From positions 189,614 to 253,613 of the forward strand of contig JANQYI010000015.1 in assembly GCA_030728985.1 (NCBI GenBank): a stretch of 64,000 nucleotides of DNA, written 5' to 3'. A program made the position numbers and the translations under genes. Source of the DNA: Burkholderiaceae bacterium (GTDB taxonomy: Bacteria > Pseudomonadota > Gammaproteobacteria > Burkholderiales > Burkholderiaceae_B). Below, piece after piece: positions 42,412 through 60,883 of this stretch; positions within the stretch are counted from its first letter, which is position 1, and each line of letters begins with the position of its first letter. The notes below the pieces were generated by a model, which had not been told where the DNA came from, did no database searches, and saw only the letters and a list, made by a program, of their open reading frames with translations.

Positions 42412-42463
42412 CAATGAATTGTATGCAACTTGACAATTGAAAGTTATTTTTTGCAATTCATTG
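42412..42463. repeat. nested inverted repeat at the 3' end of the Srf/Tag-like operon
   Basis: CAATGAATTG (42412-42421) and CAATTCATTG (42454-42463) are perfect 10-bp arms; inside them AACTT and AAGTT can also pair. The structure spans the last codons and stop of the final operon gene (stop at 42444). It may end or protect the long leftward transcript. No T-run follows on that strand, so intrinsic termination is doubtful. Confidence 0.4.
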
Positions 42464-44012
42464 GACCAAGCGCATCTTGCGCGGCGCGGTCTATACCCAC
42501 TTTCAGTTCCGAAATGTTTGACACCGTGAAAACTTTTCCACCTGTCGCTTGAGCAACGCAAGCTGCAGCTCCAGAACCCCCAATATCAACAACATTTATT
42601 TTCAAATGTGGTTTACGACGTGCCAGATCCCTGGCAACCATACATGGATCACCACCGCAGGATTCCCCGCCATCGGAGACGAGCAAGATCGTGCTTTCTT
42701 TATTCACACCATCCACCAGTTGTCCTGCTTCTAAGATCCCATCGGCCAAGGGGGTTCCTTGACGCGGACTTAACCCTCGCAGCCTGTTCACCATCTGTCC
42801 GCGCTGAGATGGCGCGTATCGACCTAAATTTCGTGCAGTCGGACACTCATCCACCACCACCAAACCAGTACCGACATCCGAAGGCAACCGTTGCAACACA
42901 TTAATCGTTGCTTGCTGAGCAGTCACCATACGCGTAGGTTGGCTCAACAAGCGCTCAAATTTCTTTCGATCAAACGGGCTGAGAAATTGAATCGCAAGCG
43001 CGCCTCGATTGAGTATCGAGAACACCCACATTTCTTCTTCGCGCGTCGCATTGATATTAATCATCATTGAACCCGATGCATCAAACACCACGACCATCTC
43101 TGGAGCAAGCGCTGGAGGTCGATCAGCTGGACAAAGATTCTTTGCCGTATCGATCGTGACAGGTGGCTTAGCGACAGGCTTGGGTTTAGGTGGTGGAGCA
43201 ACCGGTGGCGGCGCAGGAACAACTTTAGGAGGCTCTGGGACAGGCTCGGGCTCGGGCTTGGGCTCGGGTTCCGGCTCTGGATCTACAAACGGAAGATCTG
43301 CTGGTTTGGGCTCTGGCTCTGGCTCTGGTAGTGAAACAGTGGGCGGCGTGATCGCGGCTTGTGGCACAGGATCAGGAACATTAGCCGGCACAGGCGTATT
43401 TTCTATAACCGGCTGAGACGATATCAACGAATTCAAAGGATCAACGGCATTCAATGGCGATCGCGGACACCAAAGCCACCAAATAAGCGCTAGCAATAAC
43501 AACAACGCCAAGAGCCACCACGGCCATATTCTCCACCCAATAGGTGCCGTCGCTGCAACCACCGGATGAAGCGGTGCGACCAATTTTTCACGCGGTATGG
43601 CGCTCGTAATGGCCTTATCCCAAAAAAGTAAAACAGGCTGACCACCAACCGAGTAAATCGCCTCAATAGGGGGATCCGCGCTAGCATTTCGCAGCAATTG
43701 CAATAAGCGGGGATCATGTTCAGGTCGGGAAGACTCTTGATCCGCTAAGCGTTGAATCGCTTTTAAGCGTTCAAACAACTTTTCTTTCAATTCAGCCGAA
43801 GCCTGCGCGGATAATTCCTTAAAGGCGACGGGTTGACCGGCAAAGGATGAATGCCACACCACAAGGCCTTGAGCGAGAACCTGTGGGCGAGCATAAAGTG
43901 AAGTCACCGAAGGAGGTACGCGATTCCCCAGCACACTCACTAAGGAATCATGCAACGTCTCTAAATCCTTGACGGACTCTTCGGAAAAATGACGTTGCGT
44001 AATACGATTCAT
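42444..44012 (-). CDS. SrfA-like membrane protein with periplasmic vWA domain
   Basis: Last gene of the 11-gene operon; 522 residues. The cytoplasmic part (1-158) resembles the N-terminal part of the SrfA-like protein that starts the operon, sharing WH/WY..., a charged helix, and AIYSVGGQPVLLFW versus IYLVNGEPVIAFW. A Trp-flanked membrane helix follows (about 161-181). Residues 198-284 are Pro/Glu/Lys-rich with PEPEPKPEPEP-type repeats, then a vWA domain from about 305 with a canonical MIDAS motif VFDASGSMM (Asp311, Ser313, Ser315) and LLVSDGGESCGGDPC. The vWA probably sits in the periplasm and binds a metal-mediated partner. Start and stop are clear; function unknown. Confidence 0.85.
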   Translation of the reverse strand: MNRITQRHFSEESVKDLETLHDSLVSVLGNRVPPSVTSLYARPQVLAQGLVVWHSSFAGQPVAFKELSAQASAELKEKLFERLKAIQRLADQESSRPEHDPRLLQLLRNASADPPIEAIYSVGGQPVLLFWDKAITSAIPREKLVAPLHPVVAATAPIGWRIWPWWLLALLLLLALIWWLWCPRSPLNAVDPLNSLISSQPVIENTPVPANVPDPVPQAAITPPTVSLPEPEPEPKPADLPFVDPEPEPEPKPEPEPVPEPPKVVPAPPPVAPPPKPKPVAKPPVTIDTAKNLCPADRPPALAPEMVVVFDASGSMMININATREEEMWVFSILNRGALAIQFLSPFDRKKFERLLSQPTRMVTAQQATINVLQRLPSDVGTGLVVVDECPTARNLGRYAPSQRGQMVNRLRGLSPRQGTPLADGILEAGQLVDGVNKESTILLVSDGGESCGGDPCMVARDLARRKPHLKINVVDIGGSGAAACVAQATGGKVFTVSNISELKVGIDRAAQDALGPMNCKK

Positions 44013-44016
44013 CGCA

Positions 44017-44532
44017 CTACTGCAGCAAGTCAGCCTGGAGTTTACGCAACGATGCGACCTCCTTTTCCACCGCCTGAATGCGTTCGCTTAGTTCTTGAGC
44101 ATTCGCGGCACCCGAGGTGATCGGCGTTTTTTGTAAAGCATCCAAACGCTCTCGTGCACGATTCACTTGGTCCGTGAGCGTTTGATTACTTGGGTTACTA
44201 TTGAGCACCTGTCGTAAATATGCCGCCACGCTACGGTTGATATTGGTTATATCCGCACGGCGCTTAGCTACATTAGCGCTCGCGAGAGTATTCCTTTTTT
44301 CCATGTCAATCATTGACTGACGCAACAACGCATTACTTTGCCTTTCGGAGGCAAGTTGTGCTTCTTTGTCCTTTGCACGCGCATCATACGAGCCCGAAAA
44401 ATCACAATTCATCTTTGTCAACAAACCTGCATCACGCATCGCACGCGGATCGCATCCCGCTTTATCCATTGTGCATCCTGCCAACAAAACTGTCAGACCT
44501 ACCACTATTGGTGCTTTTAAATATCGTTTCAT
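44017..44532 (-). CDS. Coiled-coil lipoprotein
   Basis: Lipoprotein of 171 residues from the ATG at 44532: MKRYLKAPIVVGLTVLLAGC gives a perfect lipobox with Cys20. The longer open frame upstream would destroy this signal. The mature part has CDPRAMRDAGLL and NCDF near its start, then about 110 residues of predicted coiled coil (NALLRQSMIDMEKRN; AVEKEVASLRKLQADLLQ). I do not recognise a named family. It lies 4 bases before the SrfA-like vWA gene and after another lipoprotein gene, so is presumably an envelope subunit of this system. Confidence 0.75.
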   Translation of the reverse strand: MKRYLKAPIVVGLTVLLAGCTMDKAGCDPRAMRDAGLLTKMNCDFSGSYDARAKDKEAQLASERQSNALLRQSMIDMEKRNTLASANVAKRRADITNINRSVAAYLRQVLNSNPSNQTLTDQVNRARERLDALQKTPITSGAANAQELSERIQAVEKEVASLRKLQADLLQ

Positions 44533-44593
44533 CGTGTCACCATTTGAATAAGTTGAACAGGCACCGTTAGGATGCCCATTCGAATCGTTACGA

Positions 44594-45307
44594 TTAGCCT
44601 GCCACCTTGATGGACGATGAAAGTGCCAAGGCCGAATCAATATTGCGCTGCATCAGATCGCGATCACGAACCAAACCATCGAGCTTCGCTTGAAGCGGAC
44701 GCACATTGGCGCCAACAGCACGTTCTTTTTCAATGATGTCCTGAAACCCGTCAATGCGTGCGTTGATGTTCGCAAGCTCTTTTTCTAAATAAGCTTTGTT
44801 TGCCTTGATACGATTCAATTCACTTTGCGCTTTTTTCTGATCGATTTGTTTAGTGGCGATCTGTTGTTCTAACTGCCGCAACGTTTGCTGATTCTCTCTC
44901 AACACCACATTGACTTCATTGATCCGCTTTTTAAGATTGTCATTATCTTTTTGAACATCCTCAATAAAAGACTGAATACGCTGTTCATTATTGGAGTATT
45001 TGGCGCGACGCTGATCAAGTACATACGCGCCTCCAGCACCAACACCACATCCAGCTACAGCCGCAATCGCCATACATGCTGCTTTGTTACTAGAGTTGGT
45101 GAGGGCACAAGCTAATACCCCTGTCAATGCACCTGCTACACAGGCTTGCGCCCCTGCTTTAGTAAAAAACTTTGCCGAGTCGCCTTGCGTCAAGCGAGGA
45201 TCCACATCACCTTGCCCTCCTCCCGTTGTCTGGCAGCCCGCGAGAAAAAAAAGACTAGCCAGCGTGATTAAGGCCATGCGAGCCTTCAGTGTTGCCCTTG
45301 TTATCAT
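44594..45307 (-). CDS. Glycine-zipper coiled-coil lipoprotein (TagQ-position)
   Basis: Lipoprotein of 237 residues with FFLAGC (Cys25) as lipobox. After a short linker come small-residue hydrophobic segments (ACVAGALTGVLACALT and AACMAIAAVAGCGVGAGGAYVLDQ, about 54-98) like the glycine-zipper domains of outer-membrane lipoproteins. A long coiled coil runs about 105-225. In position and type it corresponds to TagQ, the outer-membrane lipoprotein of TagQRST modules, but I cannot claim sequence homology by eye. It is 13 bases after the FGE-fold gene and 61 bases before the next lipoprotein. Confidence 0.75.
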   Translation of the reverse strand: MITRATLKARMALITLASLFFLAGCQTTGGGQGDVDPRLTQGDSAKFFTKAGAQACVAGALTGVLACALTNSSNKAACMAIAAVAGCGVGAGGAYVLDQRRAKYSNNEQRIQSFIEDVQKDNDNLKKRINEVNVVLRENQQTLRQLEQQIATKQIDQKKAQSELNRIKANKAYLEKELANINARIDGFQDIIEKERAVGANVRPLQAKLDGLVRDRDLMQRNIDSALALSSSIKVAG

Positions 45308-45320
45308 GATTTAAATCTCC

Positions 45321-46907
45321 TTATTTAATAGAAACTGCCTTGCAACTATTGAGCCACTCAGCTTGATTAATTTTCCGATCGCTGAGGTATTTACCTAAAT
45401 GGATCCAATACGTATCGATATAGTTACCGAGATTACTGCTCTTGCGCGCGAGTAGCTGTTGACGTTTAACAGCGACTTCAGGAGCAACCATCTCTCGAGT
45501 GTAAATGGAGCCCGCCTCTACGATGCTGTCAGAGTACAAACCTAGAGCAAGCTCTTGCGCTGCCAAACGTCCATCCACATTACGCTTGGCGTTCGTACAG
45601 CGTGCCTGATCCTCTTTTGGCAAAGAATCAAACTTTGCGCAGCTTTCATCATAGTTACGCTTGATCACATCGAAAAAACGTCCTTCTCGATTAAGCAATA
45701 CACACATAAAAGCCCCCTGCTGGAGCGCAGAGCGAATCGCGATCGATCTTTGTTCATCGCGCATCTGGTTACTGCTGCGCAATTCAGTACGGAGCATTTC
45801 AAGTTCCTTCTTTAACTTATCGTCTTTCATTCCAGACATCAAATTACTCAGACGCTCGACTGTACTAGGGGTTGTGGGCAGTGTCGCTGAGCCTGGCGTG
45901 GCTGCTGGAGCATTCTCACGCGTGCCTAGCTCTTCCCAGCCTTTTTCAATTTCTTTGCTGCGATTCGTGGACGTGAGAGACGGGGCGACAAGCACTAGGC
46001 GAAAGCCAGCCGTTCGCTGCTTGTTGGGTTCAGCTTCGCGATAGTACGTTTGCTCTTCGCGCCAAGAAGTACGCACATCGCTCTCTGGAGTCATATAGTT
46101 GGCCCCACGTACAATAAAACCTCCCGCCTGACCATGAAAACGATCAAGTTTGTTCAAGCGGAACGACTCAAACATCATCTCATCGGCATTACCCAAGATG
46201 TCATGTAAACCCAAAGGATTGGGTTGTAATCGGCCTGCGAGTTGGAGTTTGCCGTTGGCAGACTGAGAGCCCGCAAACCAGACATATTTATTCAATCCGT
46301 CAGGCATCGGAAACGTTGCTTCTCTAAACTCTGTACTAGACACGCTATTCCCTCCACGGGCGGCAAACTCCCACTCCACTTCGGTTGGCAATCGTAAAAA
46401 GCCCGCCACGCCGTCTTCGGAAGGCAAGCTCTTGAGCGCATTTTTTCTCAACCATAGATTGAGCTTATCGCTAAACTGCATGGCATCAAACCAACTGAGT
46501 GATATCTTTGGCAACATCAATTTCATCGATGGGCGGGGGCAACTATCTTGCATCACCGCTTGATATTGCAACTCAGTGACTTCATACTTAGCCATCAAAT
46601 AATAACGACCTGGATTCGGTTTATCCGTCGTAAAACTTCCGGCAATAAACGCAGGGTATGCATGTTCCAAATAACGTAAGGCAGCCCCCTCGGAGCCTAA
46701 GGTGACACCAAAATCATCTAAAGGCTTTTTAACGGGCACCAACACTTTGCGAAAGGCCATAAAACCATCACAAGGAAGTGGCAAGATCACATCGTCATCG
46801 ATTGATTTAGGATTAAAAAATTTTGGATCCCAAGACTGGGCATAGCCAAAAGAACAAATTAATGACAAGGCTGACGCCAGCGTCACCGCTTTGAAAATTT
46901 TATACAT
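45321..46907 (-). CDS. Periplasmic FGE-sulfatase-fold protein (TagR-like)
   Basis: Exported protein of 528 residues from the ATG at 46907, which overlaps the permease stop by 8 bases; an in-frame upstream start at 46931 lacks support. A signal peptide (LASALSLICSFGYAQS) is followed by a domain of the formylglycine-generating-enzyme fold: MAKYEVTELQYQAVM, LPTEVEWEFAARGG, ILGNADEMMFE, GGFIVRGANYM and TAGFRLVLVAP. TagR of type VI loci has this fold and binds the periplasmic part of the kinase PpkA. Residues after about 330 form a charged helical extension with Cys residues, longer than a plain FGE domain. Enzymatic FGE activity is unlikely. Confidence 0.82.
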   Translation of the reverse strand: MYKIFKAVTLASALSLICSFGYAQSWDPKFFNPKSIDDDVILPLPCDGFMAFRKVLVPVKKPLDDFGVTLGSEGAALRYLEHAYPAFIAGSFTTDKPNPGRYYLMAKYEVTELQYQAVMQDSCPRPSMKLMLPKISLSWFDAMQFSDKLNLWLRKNALKSLPSEDGVAGFLRLPTEVEWEFAARGGNSVSSTEFREATFPMPDGLNKYVWFAGSQSANGKLQLAGRLQPNPLGLHDILGNADEMMFESFRLNKLDRFHGQAGGFIVRGANYMTPESDVRTSWREEQTYYREAEPNKQRTAGFRLVLVAPSLTSTNRSKEIEKGWEELGTRENAPAATPGSATLPTTPSTVERLSNLMSGMKDDKLKKELEMLRTELRSSNQMRDEQRSIAIRSALQQGAFMCVLLNREGRFFDVIKRNYDESCAKFDSLPKEDQARCTNAKRNVDGRLAAQELALGLYSDSIVEAGSIYTREMVAPEVAVKRQQLLARKSSNLGNYIDTYWIHLGKYLSDRKINQAEWLNSCKAVSIK

Positions 46908-48141
46908 CGCGTAGACTCTCCGCGGGTTCAATTTTGGTTGCTAACCCTCCGCCCGCGCCAGCGACAAAAATCGCAACCAAGAGCGCAGCACAGAGAGCGA
47001 CAAAAAAATGAATTGGCTCCAGCCGGCAAACAAATTGCCCGGCTGGCATGTAGGTCCCCAACAATTGATTAAATAAGAAGCTTCCCATCAGATATAGCAG
47101 GCAACCTACGACAAAACCAGCAAGCGTGAGCGCGCATGCTTGAACAACAACATACAACTGCATCGCGCTCCTACCATATCCCATCAGTCGCAACAATGCT
47201 AGATCTTTACGTTTACGATCGATATTGGCCATCAATGCGCCAATCAGTGAGGCAGCACAACCCAGCAAAGCAATCCAGGCAATCACCGCAAAAATAAGTC
47301 CCAAAACCTTATCAATCGACTGAACAGACTTGATTTCAGCTAAACGACTTGAAGTTTCTATTCCCTCGGCTAGTAACAGCGCTGACAATGACTCCACGCT
47401 TTCAATTCGATCTGCATAGATCCGCGCTCTTGCAAAGTAATTTCTAATCTGTGGCGTTTCACCGGTTGCAACACCACTGCCCTCCACTTTAAAACCATCC
47501 CTAAAGTCCTCGATATCGACCAGAAGAGGAAGCAGTAAAAATGCAGCAGGTCGATTGAACGCTGTCGCAGGCAAAACACCCACGACGCGAAGCGGAATTT
47601 GTGCTCTTTCGGAGCGATTTTCAAAAATACGCGCTACCCTCAAGCGCAGGACATCCCCCTCTTTCACACCGAGTCTTAGAGCCGCTGAGGCTGACAGCAC
47701 AACTTCATCTTTATGAAGAGGAATCGCAATACTGTTCAGTGCCGGATCCCCTTGTGCGGTAGGAATCAGCTCGGCGTTTTCAATAAAGTGCCGCCCATCC
47801 ACATAAAGATCGCCGATCGTATTGAGCGAGCGTGTCATGGGTTGAACAAAACCTAATCCGGGCGTTTTCTTGAACTGTGCAAACCAAGCATCATCAAGCT
47901 TAGCGCTACCCAACATCCGGATTTCCAGATTTCTTGGATCTGCAAGCAGTTCCGCACGCATTTGACTGACAATACCGAACTTCAAACCGAACAACAATAA
48001 CAAGGGCGCGACCACTGCAACAATCGACGCCATAATGAAAAAAGACACCTTGCGATCGTGCATCAAATCATCGATGCCCAATTTAAGCAGCAGGCTCACC
48101 GGCGGCTTTGGCAGCAGGAGAAAGGAGTCACTCTGACGCAT
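46900..48141 (-). CDS. FtsX/MacB-type ABC transporter permease (TagS-like)
   Basis: Inner-membrane permease of 413 residues from the ATG at 48141, overlapping the ATPase stop by 14 bases. It has the four-helix MacB/LolCE plan: one helix near the N terminus (IMASIVAVVAPLLLLFG), a large periplasmic domain of about 230 residues, then three C-terminal helices (FAVIAWIALLGCAASLIGAL; VVVQACALTLAGFVVGCLLYL; FFVALCAALLVAIFVAGAG). Such proteins convey mechanical or signalling work across the membrane rather than classical transport. Gene order ATPase-permease-FGE protein-lipoprotein equals TagT-TagS-TagR-TagQ. Confidence 0.85.
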   Translation of the reverse strand: MRQSDSFLLLPKPPVSLLLKLGIDDLMHDRKVSFFIMASIVAVVAPLLLLFGLKFGIVSQMRAELLADPRNLEIRMLGSAKLDDAWFAQFKKTPGLGFVQPMTRSLNTIGDLYVDGRHFIENAELIPTAQGDPALNSIAIPLHKDEVVLSASAALRLGVKEGDVLRLRVARIFENRSERAQIPLRVVGVLPATAFNRPAAFLLLPLLVDIEDFRDGFKVEGSGVATGETPQIRNYFARARIYADRIESVESLSALLLAEGIETSSRLAEIKSVQSIDKVLGLIFAVIAWIALLGCAASLIGALMANIDRKRKDLALLRLMGYGRSAMQLYVVVQACALTLAGFVVGCLLYLMGSFLFNQLLGTYMPAGQFVCRLEPIHFFVALCAALLVAIFVAGAGGGLATKIEPAESLRDV

Positions 48142-48844
48142 CAAAGCTCGTCCGACGCTGTTGGCTGACCTTTCCAACGATGGATTTGATGCCGACGGCC
48201 TCAACCAATGACCACTCATGGGTCACGATGAGTGCCGCCACCTTGAAAGCGCTAGCGATCTCAACGATCAATGCAAACAACTCTTTAGCTAGAACAGGGT
48301 CGAGAGCGGCCGTAGGCTCATCCGCCAATAACAGTTTGGGTCGATGGGCAATTGCGCGCACAAACGATACGCGCTGACGCTCACCGATAGAGAGTTGTGC
48401 AGGTGAATGCCTCATCAAAGCAGAGAGCTGCAAGCGCTCGATGACCTCTTCTAGTAACAAGTCAGAACCATTGGAACCAACGAGTTTGCGGGGCAATTCA
48501 ATATTGTCTTTGACATTTAAAAAAGGTAACAAACCACCACTCTGAGGAACAAAACCCAAACAGTGTTGACGAACACGTGCCCATCGACTTTCACGCTCTC
48601 GCAGACCAGAGGTCATATCGCGCGCAATATCGAAATCCACAAGTTGAAAACGTTTCACCGTCCGTGGCTCGAGGAGCAATCCGATGGACTCCAGCAACGT
48701 GCTCTTACCGCAACCACTTGGGCCCACAATCGCTGCGACATCACCTGCCTCCAGCTTTAACGATGGCAGCGACACCTCATAGGCTTGCCCCACCCCGCCA
48801 CGGGATACTTCAAGATCCTGAATATCAAGAATCGATTCGCTCAC
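48128..48844 (-). CDS. ABC transporter ATP-binding protein (TagT/LolD-like)
   Basis: Cytoplasmic ATPase of 238 residues powering the FtsX-type permease encoded next. Walker A is GPSGCGKST (41-49), the signature is LSIGERQRVSF, Walker B is KLLLADEPTAALDP, and the switch His is in IVTHEWSLVEA. The Q-loop lies in LGFVPQSGGLLPFL. It is 5 bases after the vWA gene and overlaps the permease gene. Sequence alone does not separate TagT from LolD and MacB; context decides. Confidence 0.9.
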   Translation of the reverse strand: MSESILDIQDLEVSRGGVGQAYEVSLPSLKLEAGDVAAIVGPSGCGKSTLLESIGLLLEPRTVKRFQLVDFDIARDMTSGLRERESRWARVRQHCLGFVPQSGGLLPFLNVKDNIELPRKLVGSNGSDLLLEEVIERLQLSALMRHSPAQLSIGERQRVSFVRAIAHRPKLLLADEPTAALDPVLAKELFALIVEIASAFKVAALIVTHEWSLVEAVGIKSIVGKVSQQRRTSFDASE

Positions 48845-48849
48845 AATAT

Positions 48850-50847
48850 TTATGGCAGAGACGCGAGGGGAACAGGATATACAGACTCGCTAGGATCACT
48901 GCCCTTAGCCAAGGAGACCCATGAACTTGCATCCTCATTAAAGCTTTGGTATTGCCTCAATTTGGTATTTAAACGAATAATGAATTGGGTTTGCGCGGCA
49001 ACCGACATCGACTTCCAGGCCTCTTCATCCAAACCAAGTACATCACTTTTATAAGGAAGCCCTTCTAGATACTCTCCAAGGACCAACTTACTGAGATTTT
49101 CCGTTCTACCTTGTCTGAGCTGATTAGGGTCTCGCCCCATCGTAGCCGCGACAGAGCGAAGACGCTCAAACATCGCCGTTGGAGAGACAAGGGAAGAATT
49201 GGCGGCTTCGACGATCTCTTTGACTGCCGCGCTCATATCGCTGAGCTGTGCCTTGGTCAGCAATACACGCACTTCGGTCGTGGGGATATTTTGCTTCACC
49301 AAATCTCGGTCACTGATCCATGCTTTAAAGAATGGAGGCGCTTTCGTACCCGTTACGCTTCCAAGGTAAGCAAGCTGCATCGCATGTCCGATGAGAGCCG
49401 CGTCTCGAGCAATCGCAGCAGAAGGGGTTGATGGCGCAGGAGTAGCAGCAGGTGTTGGAGGTGGCGGTGACGCAGCATTTAACGCACTCCCTGCGACGGG
49501 CTCACCCACGGAGGCTTGCTTAATCTGACTCACCAAGGATTCACCCAAGGTTGCAATCGTATCGCCAAAGACATTGACCTGACCTGCATTGACGGGATAG
49601 TACAAAGGTCGATTAGCAATGGAATTAAAAGAAAGCGTTTCGTATTGTCTCTGCGCAGGCTGATGATTTTTAGCACCCGCTGGCGTTTTTAAATGCAATA
49701 CATAAAGCGCGACCCCTTTTTCTTTGGCGAGCTCTCGTACAGCCTGTGCATCTAACCCTGTCGTTGAAAGGGGGTCTTTTGAATCAAGCGCACCTGCATC
49801 CGTGATCAACACAATGTAGCGCCCACCAAATTCATTCCAGTTTATTTTTTCAAGAGCCTCTTTCACGCCCGCATAAGGATCCTCATCAAACTTTGGCGTA
49901 GAAATCTTGGTTGCTTTGAGGTCTTTGATTTTCTCGAAAAAATCAGCGCCATTTTTGACTTTCGTAGGATCCGCATACAAACGCGTGTTGTATTCGATAG
50001 CAGGTACAGCACTCAATGCGGATCTAAACGCGACCAATCCAAATTTCACTTTGTCGTCAAGCTTTTCCTTTTCCATGCGCGCATAGATATTTTTAATCAC
50101 GGAACGGGTACGTTCAATGTAAGGATCCATCGACAGCGTGGAGTCAATCACAAACACCACACCGGCAGTAAAAGCTTTGATCGAACTCTGCACAACCTGA
50201 GGACTGACTGCAGGATTGGCGTTAGGCTCTTGACGACTGACCGAAGCGACCTCTAGTAAGCGGACATTAAACCCACCATCACTCATCACCTCTTCGGCTT
50301 TCAAAATAGGCAGCAAATAAAAGTTTTTACGAAAATCAACAAACAGCTCCGGTTCACGCGCCACAACGAGGGGATCACGCCCCGTTTTACTCATGCGCTC
50401 AAGAATAGGTGCATAGGTCAACGCCGGATCAGTAGAATCCAGTATTTTTTCAATAGAAACGCGATCTTTAAAAAACAAGGAAAGATTACGGTTGGCGGGA
50501 TTGGTAAAGGCAAGCGACATTTGCATTTTCCATTCCACAGTACAAGCGGCATCTAGCCAACCAATTTTCTTGCCTGTAGTATCCGGTCCAACTTCAACAA
50601 AGTTTTTACCTGCATTTTGTTGGCGTTGATAAACATAGAAACGGCTGAATGCCTCTTGCGATGCGCCTGTCTGATCACCTGGCTTGGCGAACAACTTGCA
50701 GGTAGGCGTCGTCAACACGCGTTGATAAAGTGTTGTTTTTCCTTCTTGCAGCATTGGTCTGTTTAGCAAAGCTTGAGCATGACTCGCCGCTGAAACCATC
50801 AAAAGGCTCGAACTAAGTGCTATGAACAAAGTGTGAATATTGCGCAT
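48850..50847 (-). CDS. Periplasmic vWA protein resembling the outer part of PpkA, without kinase
   Basis: Exported protein of 665 residues with a signal peptide (FIALSSSLLMVSAASHAQA). Residues about 40-110 may be an SH3-like module (CKLFAKPGDQT ... GWLDAACTVEW). A vWA domain spans about 228-430: MIDAS DSTLS (235-239) in VVFVIDSTLSMDPYIERTR, and LITDAGALD near 348-355. A Pro/Ala linker (about 455-475) leads to a helical C-terminal region. In style this matches the periplasmic half of the type VI regulatory kinase PpkA, yet no kinase domain exists here. TagR contacts that half of PpkA, so this protein is the natural partner of the FGE-fold protein. This partnership is inference. Confidence 0.78.
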   Translation of the reverse strand: MRNIHTLFIALSSSLLMVSAASHAQALLNRPMLQEGKTTLYQRVLTTPTCKLFAKPGDQTGASQEAFSRFYVYQRQQNAGKNFVEVGPDTTGKKIGWLDAACTVEWKMQMSLAFTNPANRNLSLFFKDRVSIEKILDSTDPALTYAPILERMSKTGRDPLVVAREPELFVDFRKNFYLLPILKAEEVMSDGGFNVRLLEVASVSRQEPNANPAVSPQVVQSSIKAFTAGVVFVIDSTLSMDPYIERTRSVIKNIYARMEKEKLDDKVKFGLVAFRSALSAVPAIEYNTRLYADPTKVKNGADFFEKIKDLKATKISTPKFDEDPYAGVKEALEKINWNEFGGRYIVLITDAGALDSKDPLSTTGLDAQAVRELAKEKGVALYVLHLKTPAGAKNHQPAQRQYETLSFNSIANRPLYYPVNAGQVNVFGDTIATLGESLVSQIKQASVGEPVAGSALNAASPPPPTPAATPAPSTPSAAIARDAALIGHAMQLAYLGSVTGTKAPPFFKAWISDRDLVKQNIPTTEVRVLLTKAQLSDMSAAVKEIVEAANSSLVSPTAMFERLRSVAATMGRDPNQLRQGRTENLSKLVLGEYLEGLPYKSDVLGLDEEAWKSMSVAAQTQFIIRLNTKLRQYQSFNEDASSWVSLAKGSDPSESVYPVPLASLP

Positions 50848-50848
50848 A

Positions 50849-51892: not shown

Positions 51893-54606
51893 GAATGCAT
51901 CACTTTTGCTGCGTTGAGTTTCGCGATCATGGCGCCAAGATTGGCATTCTGTTCCGGTTTAATTTCTCTGCCGCCATCATGGCCCGCATTGTCCAGAACC
52001 ATTTGCGCAAAACCGACTAACCAATCACCCATAAAGACGCGCGTGTGATCAAAGGCCTCGTTTCCAATAGCGGGAAGCTTGCCCTTAGGAATGCGGGCAG
52101 GCTGTTCAAACAATTTATGTCCCGTATTGATGCGGCTTTCTGACCGTTCTGCCAAAGGTACATCGATGTAACCGAGCCAGGCAATAAAATCTGATAACAG
52201 GGTTCGGGCGGCCATCACCTGACGATCGACCAAACGCTCTCGTTTAGTTCCAACCTGCTCATTTCCGCTGACAGCTTGAAGAAGTTTATGTTGTAAATCC
52301 ATGCGGGTGGCAGCCGTGATCAACTCATCACATAGCATTTCGGTCGCTTCTTTAGACAAGCCAAAATAAGTCAATAATCCGGCTTGACTGGGTATGTCAC
52401 GCAAATGTTCGATCCACTCCCGTACAACGGATTGAGCAAAACGAGCGTCACCACTTGCTGGCTTATTGAGGGAGACGTTCTTCTGTTGAGCCGTCGCAAC
52501 CGGTTTATCACCAAAAATATCCAACGCATCATCCAAGCCAAAAGGATCATCGCCAAGATTGAGGGCTGTTGATGCTTGCAGCTCAGTTTCAACAGACGCG
52601 TCTTGTTCGACACCATCAGCGCCCATATAAATATCTTGTAAAACAGCGTCTGACAGACGAAGTTTTTCTTGCAGCTCGGCCAACAAAGTAATCCGGGGTC
52701 TTAACGCAGTCACGACTTGTTGAGCGATCTTGCGTTTAGCTTCGACCTCACCGACGCCGTCCTGATGAAACCAACGTCCTAAGCGATTGTCGACCAGATC
52801 GTGTAAAAGCGCATCCATTTGCTCTGCAATGCGATCAAGTTTAATTTGGCGAATCGATACTTTGGCCAGATACTGACTCAATCTTTCGACGCCACCATCA
52901 TTGAATGACATCATGGCATTCCAAGCAGAATCGAAGTCAGCAATATGATTCTGAATGAGTTCGGCGCGTCCAAAAGTTTGTTCCATCAAGCGCAGCTGAT
53001 TCGCCACGGAGGACGTGATTTCTTTTTCCTGACCATTTTCAATATCAAGAAAGGCTACCGGCATGCGCGGTTTTCGCACTAAAAATGTGTTGTTAAACGG
53101 AGCTCCGTTTGACCACTCCTGCATCCACTGATAACCACCAAAGCGCTCCAGCATGGTCATTTTGACAAGGTTGTTCCAGACAGAGTGCAGCATGTCCTCG
53201 TCTTTGCTCAGCGAGTCTGTGATTTTCATATCGAACATTGTGACGGCCCAGATCAATCCCGGTGCACGTTTGCTGCGCTCCTCAGGCAACTCACCCTGCG
53301 TTTTACGAATCCATTCTGTTAAAACGGGACCGACCTCAGTCACATCGGACTGCTTGTGCGAGGCAGTACACACCACCAAGACATTCATTTCTTGGGAATC
53401 GGTATAGCGCTCAAAAAGATAAGCAACTTTGCCGCGTAGTAATAGTTGAGCGACAGGATTGCCTGATTTATCTTTGGCTTGTGCCGAACTGATGTCAGAG
53501 AGAGACTCTAGTCCAAGTCGACCACGATAGCCAGGAAAGTCAAGCAAATCGACTTCGGAAAATACAGCTTGGTGAGGCGTATTGATTAATGGAAAAATCA
53601 ACTCTGCTGTGAGGGCTGCGAGTTGAGCAAGCGTCAAGGTTTTCGCAGCACTTGGTTCACCGTCACAAAGAGGCAAAACCTGAATACTGATGTCATCAGA
53701 TCGACCCAGTCTCTCAAGCATGTCAACATTCATAATGCTATCAGCTTGGGAGAGCGCGCCACCCTGTCCCGTCGGTCGAACGACTGCTTCGATCGGCGCA
53801 TAAACGCGAGATGGATAGCCAAGTGCCGCCAAGGTTTGTGACAACATCAAAAACGTTTGCGTCAGCGCGGGTGATTGACGCCATAAACATGAAAAAAGTG
53901 TGGCCCTGTCACTCAGCGACAAAAAAGGTGCCAGTTCGACTGCGCGAGGCAAAAACTCTGCCTCAAGAACCCGAATGGATTCGCCATAACTCTCACGAAG
54001 ATAGTCCCAGAGGGACACCATATCGTCTTCTGTCACCCCAGGGACACGCTGTGCCAAGCGCTTTGACTCAAGCACCGATAATTGTTGCCGTGCCATCGAT
54101 ACATCGACAGCTTGACCGATTTTTTCAAAATTAAAATCGTTAAAATATGAATTGGCAATAATTTTGACGAGTTCAATTTCCTCGAATAATTTCAACTCAA
54201 GGGGATATCCTGCCGGCCCTTGTTTAGCCTTAAAACTGAAACGCGTGACAAGTCCTGTCGCTTCTTTACCACCGCCGGGAGGATTGATGTGACTCAAAAA
54301 ATCAAGACGCTTGCCATCCACTTCAGTTTCAAGTTTGCCGTCCGCTCCAGCAGCTAAAGCAGAAATGAGATAGGACTTTCCAGCCTGCGATAAGCCAAAA
54401 AATCCGACCGTCGAGGGGAGTCGTGAGGCAGCCGCCAAACTTTTGGCTTGGTTACGCACTCGACGCAATTTCGTCACCAGACTATCAGCCTCATTATCGA
54501 CACTTCGAGCATTGCTGCGCACGCGTCCGATCCATTCGATGGCACGCCCAGACTCTTGGTGGATTGTGAGCCAGCCTTGCGATAGTTTTTCAGTTAAGTC
54601 AGTCAT
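51889..54606 (-). CDS. SrfC-like dynamin-type GTPase
   Basis: Large P-loop protein of 905 residues of the 'putative virulence factor' SrfC family known from the Salmonella srfABC locus. Walker A is GLSQAGKS (71-78); the G3 motif is LLDFPGYRG (DFPG at 356-359), and the long distance between them reflects a big insert. After the G domain comes a long helical region (about 460-905), as in dynamin-like proteins. There is no signal peptide or membrane helix, so it is cytoplasmic or peripheral. It lies 6 bases after SrfB and overlaps the next gene. GTP hydrolysis is inferred from motifs. Confidence 0.85.
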   Translation of the reverse strand: MTDLTEKLSQGWLTIHQESGRAIEWIGRVRSNARSVDNEADSLVTKLRRVRNQAKSLAAASRLPSTVGFFGLSQAGKSYLISALAAGADGKLETEVDGKRLDFLSHINPPGGGKEATGLVTRFSFKAKQGPAGYPLELKLFEEIELVKIIANSYFNDFNFEKIGQAVDVSMARQQLSVLESKRLAQRVPGVTEDDMVSLWDYLRESYGESIRVLEAEFLPRAVELAPFLSLSDRATLFSCLWRQSPALTQTFLMLSQTLAALGYPSRVYAPIEAVVRPTGQGGALSQADSIMNVDMLERLGRSDDISIQVLPLCDGEPSAAKTLTLAQLAALTAELIFPLINTPHQAVFSEVDLLDFPGYRGRLGLESLSDISSAQAKDKSGNPVAQLLLRGKVAYLFERYTDSQEMNVLVVCTASHKQSDVTEVGPVLTEWIRKTQGELPEERSKRAPGLIWAVTMFDMKITDSLSKDEDMLHSVWNNLVKMTMLERFGGYQWMQEWSNGAPFNNTFLVRKPRMPVAFLDIENGQEKEITSSVANQLRLMEQTFGRAELIQNHIADFDSAWNAMMSFNDGGVERLSQYLAKVSIRQIKLDRIAEQMDALLHDLVDNRLGRWFHQDGVGEVEAKRKIAQQVVTALRPRITLLAELQEKLRLSDAVLQDIYMGADGVEQDASVETELQASTALNLGDDPFGLDDALDIFGDKPVATAQQKNVSLNKPASGDARFAQSVVREWIEHLRDIPSQAGLLTYFGLSKEATEMLCDELITAATRMDLQHKLLQAVSGNEQVGTKRERLVDRQVMAARTLLSDFIAWLGYIDVPLAERSESRINTGHKLFEQPARIPKGKLPAIGNEAFDHTRVFMGDWLVGFAQMVLDNAGHDGGREIKPEQNANLGAMIAKLNAAKVMHS

Positions 54607-54612
54607 AGTGCT

Positions 54613-57594
54613 TTACCTCACGCTACCGCTGTCAAGCCAATACTGCGAATCACCCAAACCCGCATCGATCATCGTGTTGAGTCTGAATTTAACTTTACTC
54701 TTCGCGCCACCCTCAACACTCGCCAACTCAAAACTTTCAGGCCCTGCTCGCTCACTGCGCCGCAGAGCTATTTTGAGTACCACACCTTTAGAGGCAAGTT
54801 TTTCTCTCAGATCTGGGTCATCGACACTCAAGGTATAGAGAGGTGAAGCGGGCCATCGGTCCGTTTTAAGCTGTCTAAAGCCGATTCGCATCGACCCCCG
54901 CATCTCAAAGGTCGTGTCCGGAAACTCATATTCGTCGTGATCGAGATCGATGTCGCGATAAAACACATTCGAGTCCTTGATCGCATTGTTGTTATCGATC
55001 ATTCCAATGAAACGCAGGGTTGAATAAGGTTTAAAGGCCGCCGAACGGAAAAAGAAGTTTGGCAGTCGCAAACTGCGGCTTAACAGGCAGAGCATCGCAC
55101 CCACAGCCGCCGTACTTTTCGGATCATCGATGCGTCCATTTTTGTGAAACGGATACCAAGGACCTGTTCGATACTGATGCATGGGCAAAATCCTGCCGGG
55201 CGGCAGGGATAGCAGCGAACGAACATAAGCGAGTACGCCAGGCATGCGTGAAGGTCTACCCGTTAACAACAAAACATCAGGTTGATACGCATAAACAACT
55301 TCGCACAAGGCTTTAAGCGTCTTGCAAATATTGAGTTCTCCACGAATAAACTGTTCATGCAAGCGACGTAGATTGATGCCAATACCCACATCTAAAATTC
55401 TGAATCCATGCGCACTCGCTCCCCCTGCTCTTTGCACGGCGGTATTGACATAATCCAGAACATCCTGGGTGGGCTTTCCAGCGTCTGCCATCAATTCGCT
55501 CAAGCTCAACACGCCTAGATTGCCTGATTCAAGCGGATCGTATTTTTCATATTCCTTAATCACACGCAAGGCCACGGGATATAGAACTTGCAGGGTGAGT
55601 TGCTGTCGCAGAACCGCCACTTGTGCATCCAGCGACTCGCTACCCATCAGGCGGGAAAGCAAAGCATCGGGCTCAGGTACGCCAACCGCTTTGAACGACG
55701 CTGCGATGGAAGGCAAAACAACGAGACGAATCACATCAAGCACGATGTCATCGCCCGCAATTTTGAAGCCATCTCGAAAGCGCTGTTCCGGAATAATGTA
55801 GGCACTTCCCCCTACCTCGCGACCCGCATTATTGGGGCCTTTATCCAGCGCATATTCATTGATGACGAGGTCCGTCGTGCCGCCACCAATATCGATTGTC
55901 GCAATGGAGACATAAGGATCTGATGATCCCTCTCGCTCAGGCTGATCAGGTCGCGCGAGTGCGGCAAAAAATTCTTCTGGACGACCTCCAAAATTATTAT
56001 GCGTTTCGCTAAAGACATAGACCACTTGACCGCAGGTTGCCTCGTCCCACTGAACGTGTACCTCAGGGAATGTTGGAAATGCCAGGTCTCGATCCTCTTC
56101 AGTATCCATACCGGCATCTTCTGGATGCCAGCCCATACTCTTCCAAATCAAACCAATCGCCTGATTCATGCAAGATTGAAAAATCTTGCGCTCTGGCTGA
56201 GGCATGGCAGGAGGAATTGTCAAAATGATTGATCGCAAATGACGGGGAACCCGCGCATGGCTCTGACGCAAACGTTGCGCAGGACTATTGATTTGAGCAA
56301 GAGCCTGTGCGAGCACTTCACACAGCATGAATGTCATGAGCGAACTGCGAGAGTAATGCGGATGAAAAACCGGCATGCGGTCTTCAGGATCGAGGGTATA
56401 AAGCGCCTGACCCATCTCATTGATCAAGCGTGAAACCGGTGCTGCAGTCGCATGCGGTTCAGCTTCTGTTTTGACATACGACGTGTTAAAGCGCCAGCCG
56501 GGTTCAAAACTTTCCTGATCCCATAAATAACGCTTGGGACTCGAAAGACCCGTCGCACCCTCAGTGCCTCGCCTCAAACTCGCCAGACGCCCTGCTTCAC
56601 GCCCAACACGCGCGATGGTTGGCCACAAGAAAGCATCATTACGTCCACTTTGAACAGAAAAATGATCTTTTCCAAATGAAGCTTGCGAAAATTCAACCCG
56701 ACTCTCGAAGGGTTCGACATAGACACATTCAGGCTTGGTTAAGTCCCTCAACTCCAGCTCATAACGCCTACGCAAACCATCACTCTCCTGGGGATGATCC
56801 TCGATCAGAATGCCACAACTGCGAGAGTTGCCGATATCTAGAACAAGATCGACCGGGATGGGTTTATAAAGATCGTTTGGCGCATTTGAGATCACCTTGA
56901 TTTCAGGTAACTTCAGCTGTGTTCCGAGCAAATGAAGGATATTTAGATAATGCGCTTGATGCTGCAACTCGCCCGTTTCAATTCGAATATCCTCTGCATC
57001 TTTTTTCAGACGTGGTCGCGCGAATTCGGAAAATACTTCGCGCAACCAGGCATCGATCCATTGTTGGTCAAGAAACCAACCCATTTCATGCGAGCGATGA
57101 GCAAAAGCAAAGCTTGTCCCAGCTTTAACATCATCGACAGAAGGCCCCATATACGACGTATCGCTTCGGTTCGGTAACACCTTGGTATCGAAAGCGAATG
57201 TGATGCGATGCGTATGTCCCTCTGGATCATCCCCTGCAGCGATTTCTGTAATGCGAACACGCGCCCAATTAGAAGGGCCTTCTTCGAAGCGCGAAGGTGG
57301 ACTGAATCTGAAATAAGGAACGGGAAGCCAAACGTCGGCAAACAGTTTGAGTGATTGATCGAGACTGACATCCAAGCGCGAGGAAACAGGAGATTTTTTT
57401 TCATCAAACGAGAAATGCAATTTTCCTGTTCTTTCGTCCTCCTGCAAGCGACCGAGCGGCCCAGCCTCTCCAAGCTTGGCAAACTCTCCAGACTGACCTT
57501 TAACAATGAAGCTCGCGGCAAAATCCAAAAACTGGATGCCGCTTCCCATGATCAATGTGGTCTGATCTTCATAAGAAGTGATTTCTGACAGCAT
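54613..57594 (-). CDS. SrfB-like actin/Hsp70-fold ATPase
   Basis: Protein of 993 residues matching the 'virulence factor SrfB' family in size and motifs. After an N-terminal domain of about 240 residues come the phosphate-1 loop VLDIGNSRSCGILIE (about 251-265), the phosphate-2 loop IDIGGGTTDLVIN (about 567-579) and an adenosine motif LLLTGRPSRMPGV (775-787). These are the hallmarks of the actin/Hsp70 ATPase superfamily, but with large inserts. The C-terminal 130 residues are beta-rich. It is 14 bases after SrfA and 6 before SrfC, the srfA-srfB-srfC order. It is cytoplasmic by sequence; partner and substrate are unknown. Confidence 0.87.
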   Translation of the reverse strand: MLSEITSYEDQTTLIMGSGIQFLDFAASFIVKGQSGEFAKLGEAGPLGRLQEDERTGKLHFSFDEKKSPVSSRLDVSLDQSLKLFADVWLPVPYFRFSPPSRFEEGPSNWARVRITEIAAGDDPEGHTHRITFAFDTKVLPNRSDTSYMGPSVDDVKAGTSFAFAHRSHEMGWFLDQQWIDAWLREVFSEFARPRLKKDAEDIRIETGELQHQAHYLNILHLLGTQLKLPEIKVISNAPNDLYKPIPVDLVLDIGNSRSCGILIEDHPQESDGLRRRYELELRDLTKPECVYVEPFESRVEFSQASFGKDHFSVQSGRNDAFLWPTIARVGREAGRLASLRRGTEGATGLSSPKRYLWDQESFEPGWRFNTSYVKTEAEPHATAAPVSRLINEMGQALYTLDPEDRMPVFHPHYSRSSLMTFMLCEVLAQALAQINSPAQRLRQSHARVPRHLRSIILTIPPAMPQPERKIFQSCMNQAIGLIWKSMGWHPEDAGMDTEEDRDLAFPTFPEVHVQWDEATCGQVVYVFSETHNNFGGRPEEFFAALARPDQPEREGSSDPYVSIATIDIGGGTTDLVINEYALDKGPNNAGREVGGSAYIIPEQRFRDGFKIAGDDIVLDVIRLVVLPSIAASFKAVGVPEPDALLSRLMGSESLDAQVAVLRQQLTLQVLYPVALRVIKEYEKYDPLESGNLGVLSLSELMADAGKPTQDVLDYVNTAVQRAGGASAHGFRILDVGIGINLRRLHEQFIRGELNICKTLKALCEVVYAYQPDVLLLTGRPSRMPGVLAYVRSLLSLPPGRILPMHQYRTGPWYPFHKNGRIDDPKSTAAVGAMLCLLSRSLRLPNFFFRSAAFKPYSTLRFIGMIDNNNAIKDSNVFYRDIDLDHDEYEFPDTTFEMRGSMRIGFRQLKTDRWPASPLYTLSVDDPDLREKLASKGVVLKIALRRSERAGPESFELASVEGGAKSKVKFRLNTMIDAGLGDSQYWLDSGSVR

Positions 57595-57608
57595 AGTGTC
57601 GCGTCCTG

Positions 57609-59123
57609 CTATTTGGGTGCGTGTCGCATGGACACGGGAAATGTTGCGCCGTTTTCATAACGGCCTTGACAGTTAGCTTGGCCATCTGGCTGAGGGGTAC
57701 AGGTTACTTTAGGCAACGCAATGGATCCACCATCTGAACATGTCGCGACGCCGCCATCATTAATTTGCAAACTGTTGCCCTGCATTTGAGCGCTCACGGC
57801 TCCAACACATTGAGATCCATCGGTACGACGAATGGTCACCTTGCCTTGCCCTTTGCCCTGACTGAAGTCATATTCGATTCTTAAGGGCTTACCCGTCTTG
57901 GCGTCTTGAATCCCCGTCCCTGCAGACCACTTTCCATCAAGGAAACGCGTATCGCCTCCGTTGATGGCTTGCCGAGGAATCGTCATTGGACGCCCAAGAG
58001 GCTGTGCGACAGGCGTATTTCCGGAACCAGGTTGAGTCGCCGCGAGATCCGGCGGCGTGATCGTAAGTGGAGGGGGCACTTGTTGGGTAGACTGAGGAGG
58101 CGTCAATGGCGGCACTATTGGCACAGAAGGTGGCTCAAGCGTTGATGATTCTGCTGTAGGCGATTGAGCAACGGGAGCGCCAGCATCCGGCGTTTGAGAA
58201 TTCGCAGCTACATCACCGCCAGGCGCAGGACTGATTAAATCAGCTGGAGCAGAACCTGGTGCTTCATTGCGCGAAGCAAGATCAGCACCCGCAACTGGGA
58301 CGCTCACTCCGACTCTTGGATCACTCCCCGACCACCAACGACGCACCGTCGACACCCCACGATCGATCCAACCGTCTGGCACCGTTCTCACCGAAGAATC
58401 AACAGGGACAACAGACTGACCGGGAAGCACGGGTGGTTTGACCGTTTGTGTCGGAAGCGCAGGTAATGATGACGATGACGAGGGCAATGGTGTGACAGGC
58501 GCACAACTGCGCCACAAAAAAAACAAGAGCAATAAAAGCAGCAAGAGTAGCAATAACCACCACCACCAAGCCCTACGGGCCGGTTTATTCAGCGCAGCGA
58601 CTGTCGGGGCTACGGTCGCTGCAGAGACAGGACGTAGGGATACAAAAGGATCCGCTGGCAATCCCGCACCTTGTGTATGAAACCCCCAAAATGCGATGAC
58701 AGGCTCACCGTTGACTAAATAAATGAACTGAGTGTCGGGAAAATAAAATACTTTGCTCATTAAAGGCAAAACGGTGTTTTTTTCACGCTCTGCTTGCCCA
58801 TCTCTGGACTCAGCAAGGCGCATTTTTTCAATCGCTGACTCAAGTGTTCGGTGTGCGGCATCCAATCTAGCGAGGGCATACTCCCGTTCTTGGCTTGAAG
58901 CGGCGGACCAGGGCACAACATCTCCCTCAACCGGCGCATACCAGTCCACCATGCTGCCATGTTGATTAGATTGGGGGATACCGAGGCAGTTTGCAGTGCT
59001 TGCACCTGCTTTTAAGCGAATCGCCTCACGCAGCTGAAAGGCCACTGCGTAAACCGGCTGTCCGCCTTCGCCGATTGCCTTGTAATGCTGAGGATTACCA
59101 CTGACGAGTAGACTTCCAGCCAT
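57609..59123 (-). CDS. SrfA-like single-pass membrane protein
   Basis: First gene of the operon; 504 residues, start at 59123 with GAGGAAT 8 bases upstream. The cytoplasmic N-terminal part (1-180) ends with IYLVNGEPVIAFWGFH (134-149), shared with the operon's last protein. A Trp-rich membrane helix follows at about 186-202. Residues 210-380 are a Pro/Ser/Thr-rich linker. The C-terminal domain of about 115 residues is beta-rich with paired Cys (GSQCVGAV, VATCSDGG, VTCTPQ, ANCQGRY), so it is presumably periplasmic with disulfides. Named SrfA-like from order with SrfB and SrfC and its layout; the sequence match is moderate. Confidence 0.78.
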   Translation of the reverse strand: MAGSLLVSGNPQHYKAIGEGGQPVYAVAFQLREAIRLKAGASTANCLGIPQSNQHGSMVDWYAPVEGDVVPWSAASSQEREYALARLDAAHRTLESAIEKMRLAESRDGQAEREKNTVLPLMSKVFYFPDTQFIYLVNGEPVIAFWGFHTQGAGLPADPFVSLRPVSAATVAPTVAALNKPARRAWWWWLLLLLLLLLLLFFLWRSCAPVTPLPSSSSSLPALPTQTVKPPVLPGQSVVPVDSSVRTVPDGWIDRGVSTVRRWWSGSDPRVGVSVPVAGADLASRNEAPGSAPADLISPAPGGDVAANSQTPDAGAPVAQSPTAESSTLEPPSVPIVPPLTPPQSTQQVPPPLTITPPDLAATQPGSGNTPVAQPLGRPMTIPRQAINGGDTRFLDGKWSAGTGIQDAKTGKPLRIEYDFSQGKGQGKVTIRRTDGSQCVGAVSAQMQGNSLQINDGGVATCSDGGSIALPKVTCTPQPDGQANCQGRYENGATFPVSMRHAPK

Positions 59124-59292
59124 TCAATCGATTCCTCGTTGACGATCGCATTTGTTATAAAAAAGATAAGGAATGTTACCTGATGACAGCACGATTAAAA
59201 TGAGATAAATGCTCTAGTGAGATATATTAACTTTTCTCTCTTGATCGCGTCACGTGAGTGACACCTCAAAATCCCGAATTCGAGACCTATCG
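59124..59292. promoter_or_regulatory. divergent promoter region of the Srf/Tag-like operon and puuE
   Basis: This 169-base gap separates the leftward operon from the rightward deacetylase gene. On the leftward strand a TATAAC (59159-59154) could be the -10 element, giving a leader of about 25 bases before the Shine-Dalgarno; no -35 match is seen at 16-18 bases, so an activator may be needed. The right half is AT-rich. No repeats resembling operators were found. Confidence 0.35.
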
Positions 59293-60243: not shown

Positions 60244-60342
60244 TAGAAATTTCATTGTTGTTTACAAAAAACAATGTAATACTAATAAATGTTAGCTGTG
60301 TAAATGCTCAGTAGCCCTTTGGCCAATCTCGGAGAAAACCTC

Positions 60343-60720: not shown

Positions 60721-60775
60721 ATTAACTCTCCTTGACCGATCGCTCTTTGTCGATTGGTTAATACATTTGCATCAG

Positions 60776-60806
60776 GCGACCTAGTTCAAAAACTGGTCGC
60801 TTTTTT
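60776..60806 (+). terminator. rho-independent terminator
   Basis: GCGACC-T-AGTT (60776-60786) pairs with AACTGGTCGC (60791-60800), leaving one bulged T and the loop CAAA, followed by six Ts (60801-60806). It ends the transcript of the small Ala/Gly-rich gene, 55 bases after its stop. Confidence 0.85.
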
Positions 60807-60883
60807 GTACATCGCAATCGTCATTCTCGGTTAATGTTGCGTTCATCAAAATATTTGCCTGCTTGACGGGGCATTCAACCAAT

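Follow-up and report, generated by a model that had tools for sequence, protein, structure and literature searches.

The SrfA, SrfB and SrfC proteins have been labelled virulence factors, effectors or toxins since about 2000, and we know of no agreed mechanism for them. Here we analyse an operon in which their genes are joined to relatives of a bacterial envelope sensor: eleven leftward genes at 42444-59123 of a 64,000-nucleotide stretch of contig JANQYI010000015.1 (the window; contig C15 of genome G000 in our numbering) from a Burkholderiaceae bacterium, whose genome is 2.35 Mb long and 87% complete. Judged by profile comparison, genes 5 to 9 of this operon correspond to the damage sensor of the type VI secretion system (T6SS), PpkA-TagT-TagS-TagR-TagQ, with the kinase of PpkA missing.

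In Xenorhabdus, SrfA, SrfB and SrfC co-immunoprecipitate as a heteromeric complex, and T6SS-control genes lie near srfABC (PMC6950479). In Salmonella, srfABC is raised in the absence of CpxR (PMC6829429), lowered via RcsF and raised via PmrAB (PMC6543913), which places it under envelope-stress regulators. Meanwhile, the TagQRST/PpkA proteins of P. aeruginosa sense outer-membrane damage (PMC11881912); the vWA-containing part of PpkA serves as an extracellular sensor, and TagR acts together with the C-terminal domain of PpkA (PMC3224232). The two sets of genes have been seen together before: a 10-gene srfABC-tagQRST-ppkA-ligA-hap neighbourhood, with T6SS machinery in only one genome, was reported in 2013 for oral, host-associated Deltaproteobacteria, and PpkA was read there as a kinase possibly triggering SrfC export (PMC3608642). 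The same gene families stand side by side in that neighbourhood and in the operon, so the Srf-Tag co-occurrence is not new in outline; the passages of the 2013 account that deal with it take PpkA as a kinase and offer no analysis of inheritance or kinase loss (PMC3608642).

The operon and its counterpart in type VI secretion clusters

The operon comprises the following genes, in order of reading:

57609..59123, minus strand: gene 1, SrfA (NF040486, 339 bits; transmembrane helix at 185-203)
54613..57594, minus strand: gene 2, SrfB, predicted actin/Hsp70-type ATPase (PF07520, 1372 bits)
51889..54606, minus strand: gene 3, SrfC, predicted P-loop GTPase (PF10139, 1041 bits; motifs GLSQAGKS and DLLDFPG)
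50849..51892, minus strand: gene 4, proposed adaptor (transmembrane helix; alignment)
48850..50847, minus strand: gene 5, vWA protein homologous to the periplasmic half of PpkA, bearing a signal peptide but no kinase (profile match to PpkA)
48128..48844, minus strand: gene 6, TagT-type ATP-binding cassette (ABC) ATPase (ABC, 85 bits; conserved ABC motifs)
46900..48219, minus strand: gene 7, TagS-type FtsX/LolCE-like permease with about four transmembrane helices (FtsX, 45 bits; LolC match in PDB)
45321..46931, minus strand: gene 8, TagR-type periplasmic FGE-fold protein (FGE-sulfatase, 99 bits; signal peptide by eye)
44594..45307, minus strand: gene 9, TagQ-like coiled-coil lipoprotein (lipobox; profile match to T6SS TagQ)
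44017..44640, minus strand: gene 10, second coiled-coil lipoprotein (lipobox; family present in 68 of 76 loci)
42444..44012, minus strand: gene 11, SrfA-like N-terminal domain, transmembrane helix, linker and C-terminal vWA domain with a conserved Cys

Genes 5 to 9 were compared with T6SS clusters of a Pseudomonas family, in which 33 of 248 genomes carry a TagQ gene above the curated cut-off; 12 clusters were chosen from these 33, and one of them, typed by Pfam, contains DotU-OmpA, IcmF, TagF, PP2C, a 1028-residue protein kinase, an ABC protein and a glycine-zipper lipoprotein. In all 12 clusters, genes 5-9 match the periplasmic half of PpkA, TagT, TagS, TagR and TagQ in both sequence and order. 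The gene-5 profile covers the last ~620 residues of PpkA (E 9e-169 to 1e-157), gene 6 matches the gene in the TagT position (E 7e-77 to 2e-67), gene 7 matches TagS (E 6e-104 to 4e-94), gene 8 TagR (E 6e-88 to 6e-83) and gene 9 TagQ (E 1e-16 to 9e-8). Gene 5 thus occupies the ppkA position, and a signal-like N-terminal stretch replaces the kinase and the membrane anchor. Its homologues were found in 37 of the 38 genomes searched, with frames of 654-732 aa in 35; the two longer values, from G484 and G071, are stop-to-stop lengths, and in Azotobacter (G071, L013) the open reading frame measures 665 aa from its first start. A fusion of gene 5 to a kinase or to gene 4, considered on account of long frames, was rejected, the frames in L170 being overlapping ones with genes 4 and 6 both present. 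In Halomonas sp. QHL1 (G077), two gene-5 copies, with frames of 664 and 672 aa, lie ~26 kb apart on opposite strands. In trees of gene 5, TagR and TagS, obtained by quick searches with 23 rows left out of each, a single branch with support 100 divides all Srf-type rows from the 12 T6SS rows.

The threonine-phosphorylation pathway of Pseudomonas (TagQ-TagR-TagS-TagT-PpkA-PppA) also includes the kinase domain of PpkA and the PP2C protein PppA. For these two, as for TagF and TssM, single-sequence queries gave no homologue in 121 Srf loci with limited flanks; the operon has Srf genes in place of the T6SS genes. Of the five T6SS queries, which all came from one cluster, only TssL (DotU-OmpA) gave matches, two OmpA-like ones in L032 and L023. 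Since gene 5 corresponds to the periplasmic half of PpkA only and no kinase was matched in these loci, the operon holds what is by homology the T6SS damage sensor minus its kinase, an identity that the first-pass annotation of the window had missed. At the genome level, neither VipB/TssC nor TssM was detected in the window's own genome, which is 87% complete, nor VipB or TssM in two genomes of the same genus (G012 and G022) rated 100% complete. VipB occurs in 33 of 60 SrfB-positive genome entries, and TssM in none of the 27 VipB-negative ones; three genomes were entered twice (G012/G075, G022/G061, G015/G062), leaving 57 and 24 distinct genomes, respectively. A hidden link to a T6SS was rejected on these grounds. 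The annotation had described the operon as lacking a secretion apparatus, which these searches support, as the queries from one T6SS cluster revealed no TssM, TagF, PP2C or PpkA-kinase homologue linked to the Srf genes in the 121 loci.

These results bear directly on the proposal that SrfABC is an effector or toxin system, secreted or released, with the Tag genes acting as a T6SS-type release control. Xenorhabdus SrfABC is reportedly toxic to insect and mammalian cells, both as lysate and as single proteins (PMC6950479), and export of SrfC triggered by PpkA was the suggestion made in 2013 (PMC3608642). However, the supposed PpkA has no kinase in the loci examined, 27 SrfB-bearing genome entries (24 distinct) have neither VipB nor TssM, and SrfC retains its nucleotide motifs (G1 and G3) in every one of the 107 Tag-type proteins, a count that includes near-duplicates (L171 is the same contig as L040, judged by length). 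Moreover, Salmonella srfB or operon mutants are described as affecting swarming only, in the passages on these strains (PMC4219756). We therefore consider a secreted effector improbable.

The other assignments vary in strength. The eleven open reading frames proposed by the annotation are all present, and its gene families (SrfA, SrfB, SrfC, ABC, FtsX, FGE, vWA and two lipoproteins) were upheld by family scans and motifs. The vWA match of gene 5 is 24.3 bits, barely above the cut-off, and a hydrophobic stretch is found at its N-terminus by hydropathy. Gene 9 scores 42.7 bits against the TagQ family NF041250, far below the curated cut-off of 300, and is retained as TagQ-like because the profile matches TagQ in T6SS clusters. 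Genes 6 and 7 also resemble LolD and LolC of LolCDE/MacB-type ABC systems, but the matches to TagT and TagS are far stronger, and the operon has a single permease gene. In the case of gene 11, described as a second SrfA-like vWA protein, the transmembrane helix and the conserved Cys were seen, although both family matches fall below their cut-offs: far below for the SrfA-like N-terminus (41 bits against a curated 150) and barely below for VWA_2 (26.7 against 27). Genes 1, 4 and 11 each have a single transmembrane helix by hydropathy; gene 1 is laid out as an N-terminal domain (predicted cytoplasmic), the helix, a linker and a C-terminal domain with a conserved Cys, and gene 4 as an N-terminal domain (predicted cytoplasmic), a linker, the helix and a TPR-like C-terminal tail with a conserved Cys. 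All calls of transmembrane helices, N-terminal stretches and lipoboxes are by hydropathy and motif. Gene 4 aligns with its counterparts in a divergent lineage at hhalign 99.7%; for genes 5 and 11, sequence searches of PDB gave no useful match.

With the longest starts, the intergenic distances are 14, 6, -4, 1, 5, -92, -32, 13, -47 and 4 bases, so the range of 1-61 bases first proposed holds for some start choices only. This dependence arises because the longest frame of gene 10 has its lipobox at residue 53; if translation began at the Met lying 16 residues ahead of the lipobox, the gap to gene 9 would be 61 bases, and the true start of gene 10 is probably near 44532. Beyond the operon, on the other strand, the window carries at 59254-62336 a polysaccharide deacetylase, a DUF6072 protein, a beta-eliminating lyase and a Rap1a-like small protein (a weak match), and these neighbours are conserved in place in three Zwartia-like relatives (L002, L003 and L017).

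Conservation, distribution and joint inheritance

The Srf and Tag halves are conserved as one neighbourhood. All eleven families occur in 68 of 76 loci (69 from a SrfC scan of named genomes and 7 from the host's family): 64 keep the window order on one strand, and 4 have gene 11 inverted and upstream. Of the other eight loci, the four from Lonsdalea contain just SrfABC, and contig ends truncate the remaining four. The hosts include Pseudomonas, Azotobacter, Halomonas, Pasteurellaceae, Gilliamella, Taylorella and Alcaligenaceae. For nine genes, the distance matrices computed over 49 loci, with 20 near-duplicate loci left out, agree with r 0.78-0.95, and for three copies outside the host lineage the nearest kin are the same in both halves, with gene 7 as the single exception. 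Taylorella, classed in Alcaligenaceae, has SrfB, SrfC, gene 5, TagS and TagR that are all nearest to Pasteurellaceae, and in L116 and L117, from Alcaligenaceae-family hosts, both halves are nearest to Pseudomonas/Stutzerimonas, except for TagS of L116, which is nearest to Vreelandella. The shared nearest kin indicate that the two halves travel together. Gene order, breadth of hosts and co-transfer rule out adjacency by chance, and the idea that the halves form one unit, already put forward in the first-pass annotation, is now supported by conserved homologue neighbourhoods and by joint transfer between families.

Within the host's genus, SrfB is present in 13 of 32 genomes, the closest named relative being Zwartia vadi (SrfB 93% identical), which makes a Zwartia-like member of Alcaligenaceae the very likely host. 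The upstream polysaccharide deacetylase gene is retained in 7 of the 8 distinct loci examined in this genus, and the GC content of the locus is ordinary (0.496 vs 0.504). The family is uncommon at a wider scale, with 7 of 369 genomes above the cut-off in a class sample; the class, order, family and phylum samples overlap. A tblastn search of 72,556 plasmid records gave 141 with SrfC, 142 with SrfB and 125 with gene 5, and Klebsiella accounts for 114 records in each case. All eleven families are present on the Enterobacter sp. 638 plasmid, where the vWA gene leads the series, and one Klebsiella plasmid has genes 9-11 ahead of SrfA. A scan of viral contigs for SrfC, a weak one using two peptide patterns only, confirmed none of 10 candidate stretches. 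L190 has an additional set of homologues of genes 8, 9 and 10 upstream of SrfB, alongside the gene 8 on the downstream side.

A patchy distribution in the host's genus, plasmid carriage and joint transfer are consistent with an anti-phage or anti-competitor defence, set off by a breach of the envelope in the manner of Zorya. Several observations run counter to this explanation: at E 0.01, PADLOC offers no matching family for SrfB, SrfC or genes 4, 5, 7, 8, 10 and 11; within the host's genus, the upstream neighbour is retained and the GC content is ordinary; the window genes showed no nuclease domain; and in the family of G803, to which the Zor-type loci belong, SrfB occurs in 47 of 56 genomes, often in enlarged frames of ~1260-1420 aa, and may thus have a near-core role in that lineage. 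The loci that link Srf genes to Zorya components, treated below, belong to the same question.

Sequence motifs, the short SrfABC form and the Zor-type loci

SrfB conserves the motifs LDxGNSR, DIGGGTTDL and TGRPSR, which we take to be the phosphate-1, phosphate-2 and adenosine-type motifs of actin/Hsp70-type ATPases. Its DIGGGTTDL motif aligns to those of DnaK and FtsA (hhalign 36-61%, over only 20-30 columns), and SrfB has no sequence match in PDB at E 1. SrfC aligns to E. coli RdcA, presumably the dynamin-like CrfC, at hhalign 6% and over the P-loop only; its best profile matches in PDB are to a Mg transporter, in a region other than the P-loop (E 0.009), and to a guanylate-binding protein (E 0.94).

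The retention of these motifs differs between the Tag-type loci and a short form in which genes 4-11 do not adjoin SrfABC. This form accounts for 17 loci; in the order of Lonsdalea, SrfB occurs in 43 of 247 genomes, and 13 of the 39 regions viewed contain SrfABC alone. As in the window operon, the operons of Salmonella, Xenorhabdus and other enterobacteria have SrfA followed by SrfB and then SrfC. In the short form, one or both of the SrfC GTPase motifs are often lost. G3 is missing in 9 of the 17 short loci, 8 of which also lack G1; these loci with decayed SrfC P-loop and/or switch II (L142-L145, L150-L153 and L155) retain the SrfB motifs, which persist, with small changes, in the 11 short rows shown. 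By our reading of a 35-row tree, there were at least two losses of SrfC motifs. L142, from a degenerate lineage, has 78% DNA identity to a Salmonella enterica SrfB record. A search of E. coli genomes with one SrfC gene of the short form returned no match.

In an SrfB tree of 79 rows out of 139 loci and the window, made by a quick search, the short rows form one clade nested within the Tag-type rows with support 100. A tree holding 16 Tag-type rows together without the short rows was rejected by the approximately unbiased (AU) test (p 5e-5; 35 rows, outgroup, mixture model), the tested group having been named after the earlier tree. Gene 5 was not found in any of the 14 short-form genomes searched, out of 17 short loci. 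Taken together, these comparisons suggest that the short SrfABC operon derives from the long Tag-type form.

This derivation is relevant to the explanation in which the two halves are independent and merely share a promoter, Srf having a housekeeping or surface-motility role of its own. The 17 loci with short SrfABC alone and three genomes in which Tag modules stand alone are in keeping with it, as is the effect of srfABC on Salmonella swarming (PMC4219756). On the other hand, order and inheritance are joint for both halves, the short form is the derived one, and its SrfC lacks one or both GTPase motifs in 9 of 17 loci, so that we regard independent halves as quite unlikely.

A second departure from the Tag-type arrangement is found in a small set of loci, three of which (L157, 11091-19297; L158, 10491-17659; and L188) have SrfB and SrfC followed by ZorA- and ZorB-like genes instead of Tag genes, in the same order and in one family, with two proteins of unknown family between the ZorA- and ZorB-like genes. 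A truncated locus, L184, has a piece of a ZorA-like gene and then the contig end. In L157 and L158, PADLOC identified ZorA1 (1e-32 and 1e-28) and ZorB1 (4e-45 and 7e-56); the Zor-like genes of L188 and L184 were recognised with local profiles only, and L184 was classed as having neither gene 5 nor Zor in the motif count of Tag-type and short loci. G1 and G3 are kept in 4 of 4 Zor-type SrfC rows. Because the SrfB proteins of L158 and L188 are near-identical and the intervening proteins of L157 show no match to those of L158, the link to Zor rests on two or three independent cases, and the profiles of the intervening proteins show likeness between L188 and L158 only. Homology to gene 4 is not supported for the gene that takes its position in these loci (hhalign 1.7%), only position and layout being in agreement.

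The ZorAB proteins of Zorya form a motor that is powered by ions and binds peptidoglycan, and that is believed to respond when phages damage the wall (PMC11890865). Zorya resembles the operon, as we interpret it, in combining an envelope-spanning perturbation sensor with cytoplasmic partners, and the three Zor-type loci and L184 speak for a defence role. However, Zorya needs ZorAB together with ZorCD or ZorE, and neither the window operon nor the Zor-type loci scanned showed this set: ZorC, ZorD and ZorE gave no match among the ten genes scanned (seven from L158, three from L157), and PADLOC showed no Zor match for ten window proteins, which for gene 6 applies to the 25 of 56 matches listed. 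With the Zor link limited to so few independent cases, a role in defence seems to us unlikely, though worth keeping in view.

Other variants add further components. A Cereibacter variant has a trypsin-like protease and a peptidoglycan-binding protein in addition, and a Rhizobium variant has a family-3 glycosidase and neither gene 5 nor Tag genes. In L173 and L174, no SrfC was detected with SrfB, whose neighbours are, by eye, a protein of 333 residues with a membrane stretch at its N-terminus and a response-regulator-like gene. Stand-alone modules of a kinase-less vWA protein, TagT, TagS, TagR, TagQ and a lipoprotein lie in L201 (9108-17210), L202 (1572-9307) and L203 (301-9348, its TagS split over two frames), none of them with an adjoining Srf gene or PpkA-kinase match; L200 contains a gene-5 homologue alone.

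A proposed envelope-perturbation response

We favour, with somewhat more confidence than doubt, an interpretation of the operon as a stand-alone system that responds to perturbation of the envelope. By analogy with TagQRST/PpkA of P. aeruginosa, its stimulus would be outer-membrane damage, received by the lipoprotein TagQ, the periplasmic TagR, TagT/TagS as the ABC transducer and the PpkA half that bears the vWA domain. The signal would pass inward through single-pass adaptors, namely gene 4, SrfA and the SrfA-like vWA protein of gene 11, and not through a kinase. The cytoplasmic pair of SrfB, a predicted ATPase, and SrfC, a predicted GTPase, may then act at the inner membrane near the site of damage, where local membrane remodelling or repair is our first guess for the output and defence our second. 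The first-pass annotation had fused the two modules into a single machine; one inherited unit, predicted to span the cytoplasm to the outer membrane, is what the comparisons support, and its halves may be physically coupled.

A number of observations weigh against this interpretation. Both SrfC motifs are kept in 8 of the 17 short loci, where no sensor genes adjoin, and the prevalence of SrfB in the family of G803 has the look of a core function rather than of an add-on for stress or defence. Three of the four Zor-variant genomes carry a kinase-less vWA-TagT-S-R-Q module away from Srf, which shows that the Tag module can stand without adjacent Srf genes and argues against a simple swap of sensors. 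In addition, Pfam gave no VWA match in PpkA at E 0.001 (one PpkA), so the link between gene 5 and PpkA is carried by our own profile, and the actin-like nature of SrfB and the dynamin-like nature of SrfC are predicted at the level of motifs only.

A broader possibility, which we put forward tentatively and hold to be somewhat less than probable, is that SrfB and SrfC are the cytoplasmic output, driven by GTP, of a new class of machines that respond to envelope perturbation through a plug-in sensor, mostly a kinase-less TagQRST-PpkA module and in a few cases a ZorAB-type stator. Enterobacterial SrfABC would then be a degenerate remnant, in which the sensor has been lost and, in several lineages, the GTPase as well. 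Among the matches listed in a search of open-licence titles and abstracts, none reports that the kinase is lost, that the short form is nested, that SrfC motifs decay or that Srf genes are linked to Zor.

For the biology of these proteins, the findings mean that the TagQRST-PpkA sensor may be regarded as a portable module that can sit beside a different output, and not as a part of the T6SS as such. The fuller form of SrfABC appears to carry an outer-membrane damage sensor minus its kinase, and the SrfC motifs are kept wherever that sensor is present. The long-standing question of what SrfABC does thereby becomes open to simple experiments.

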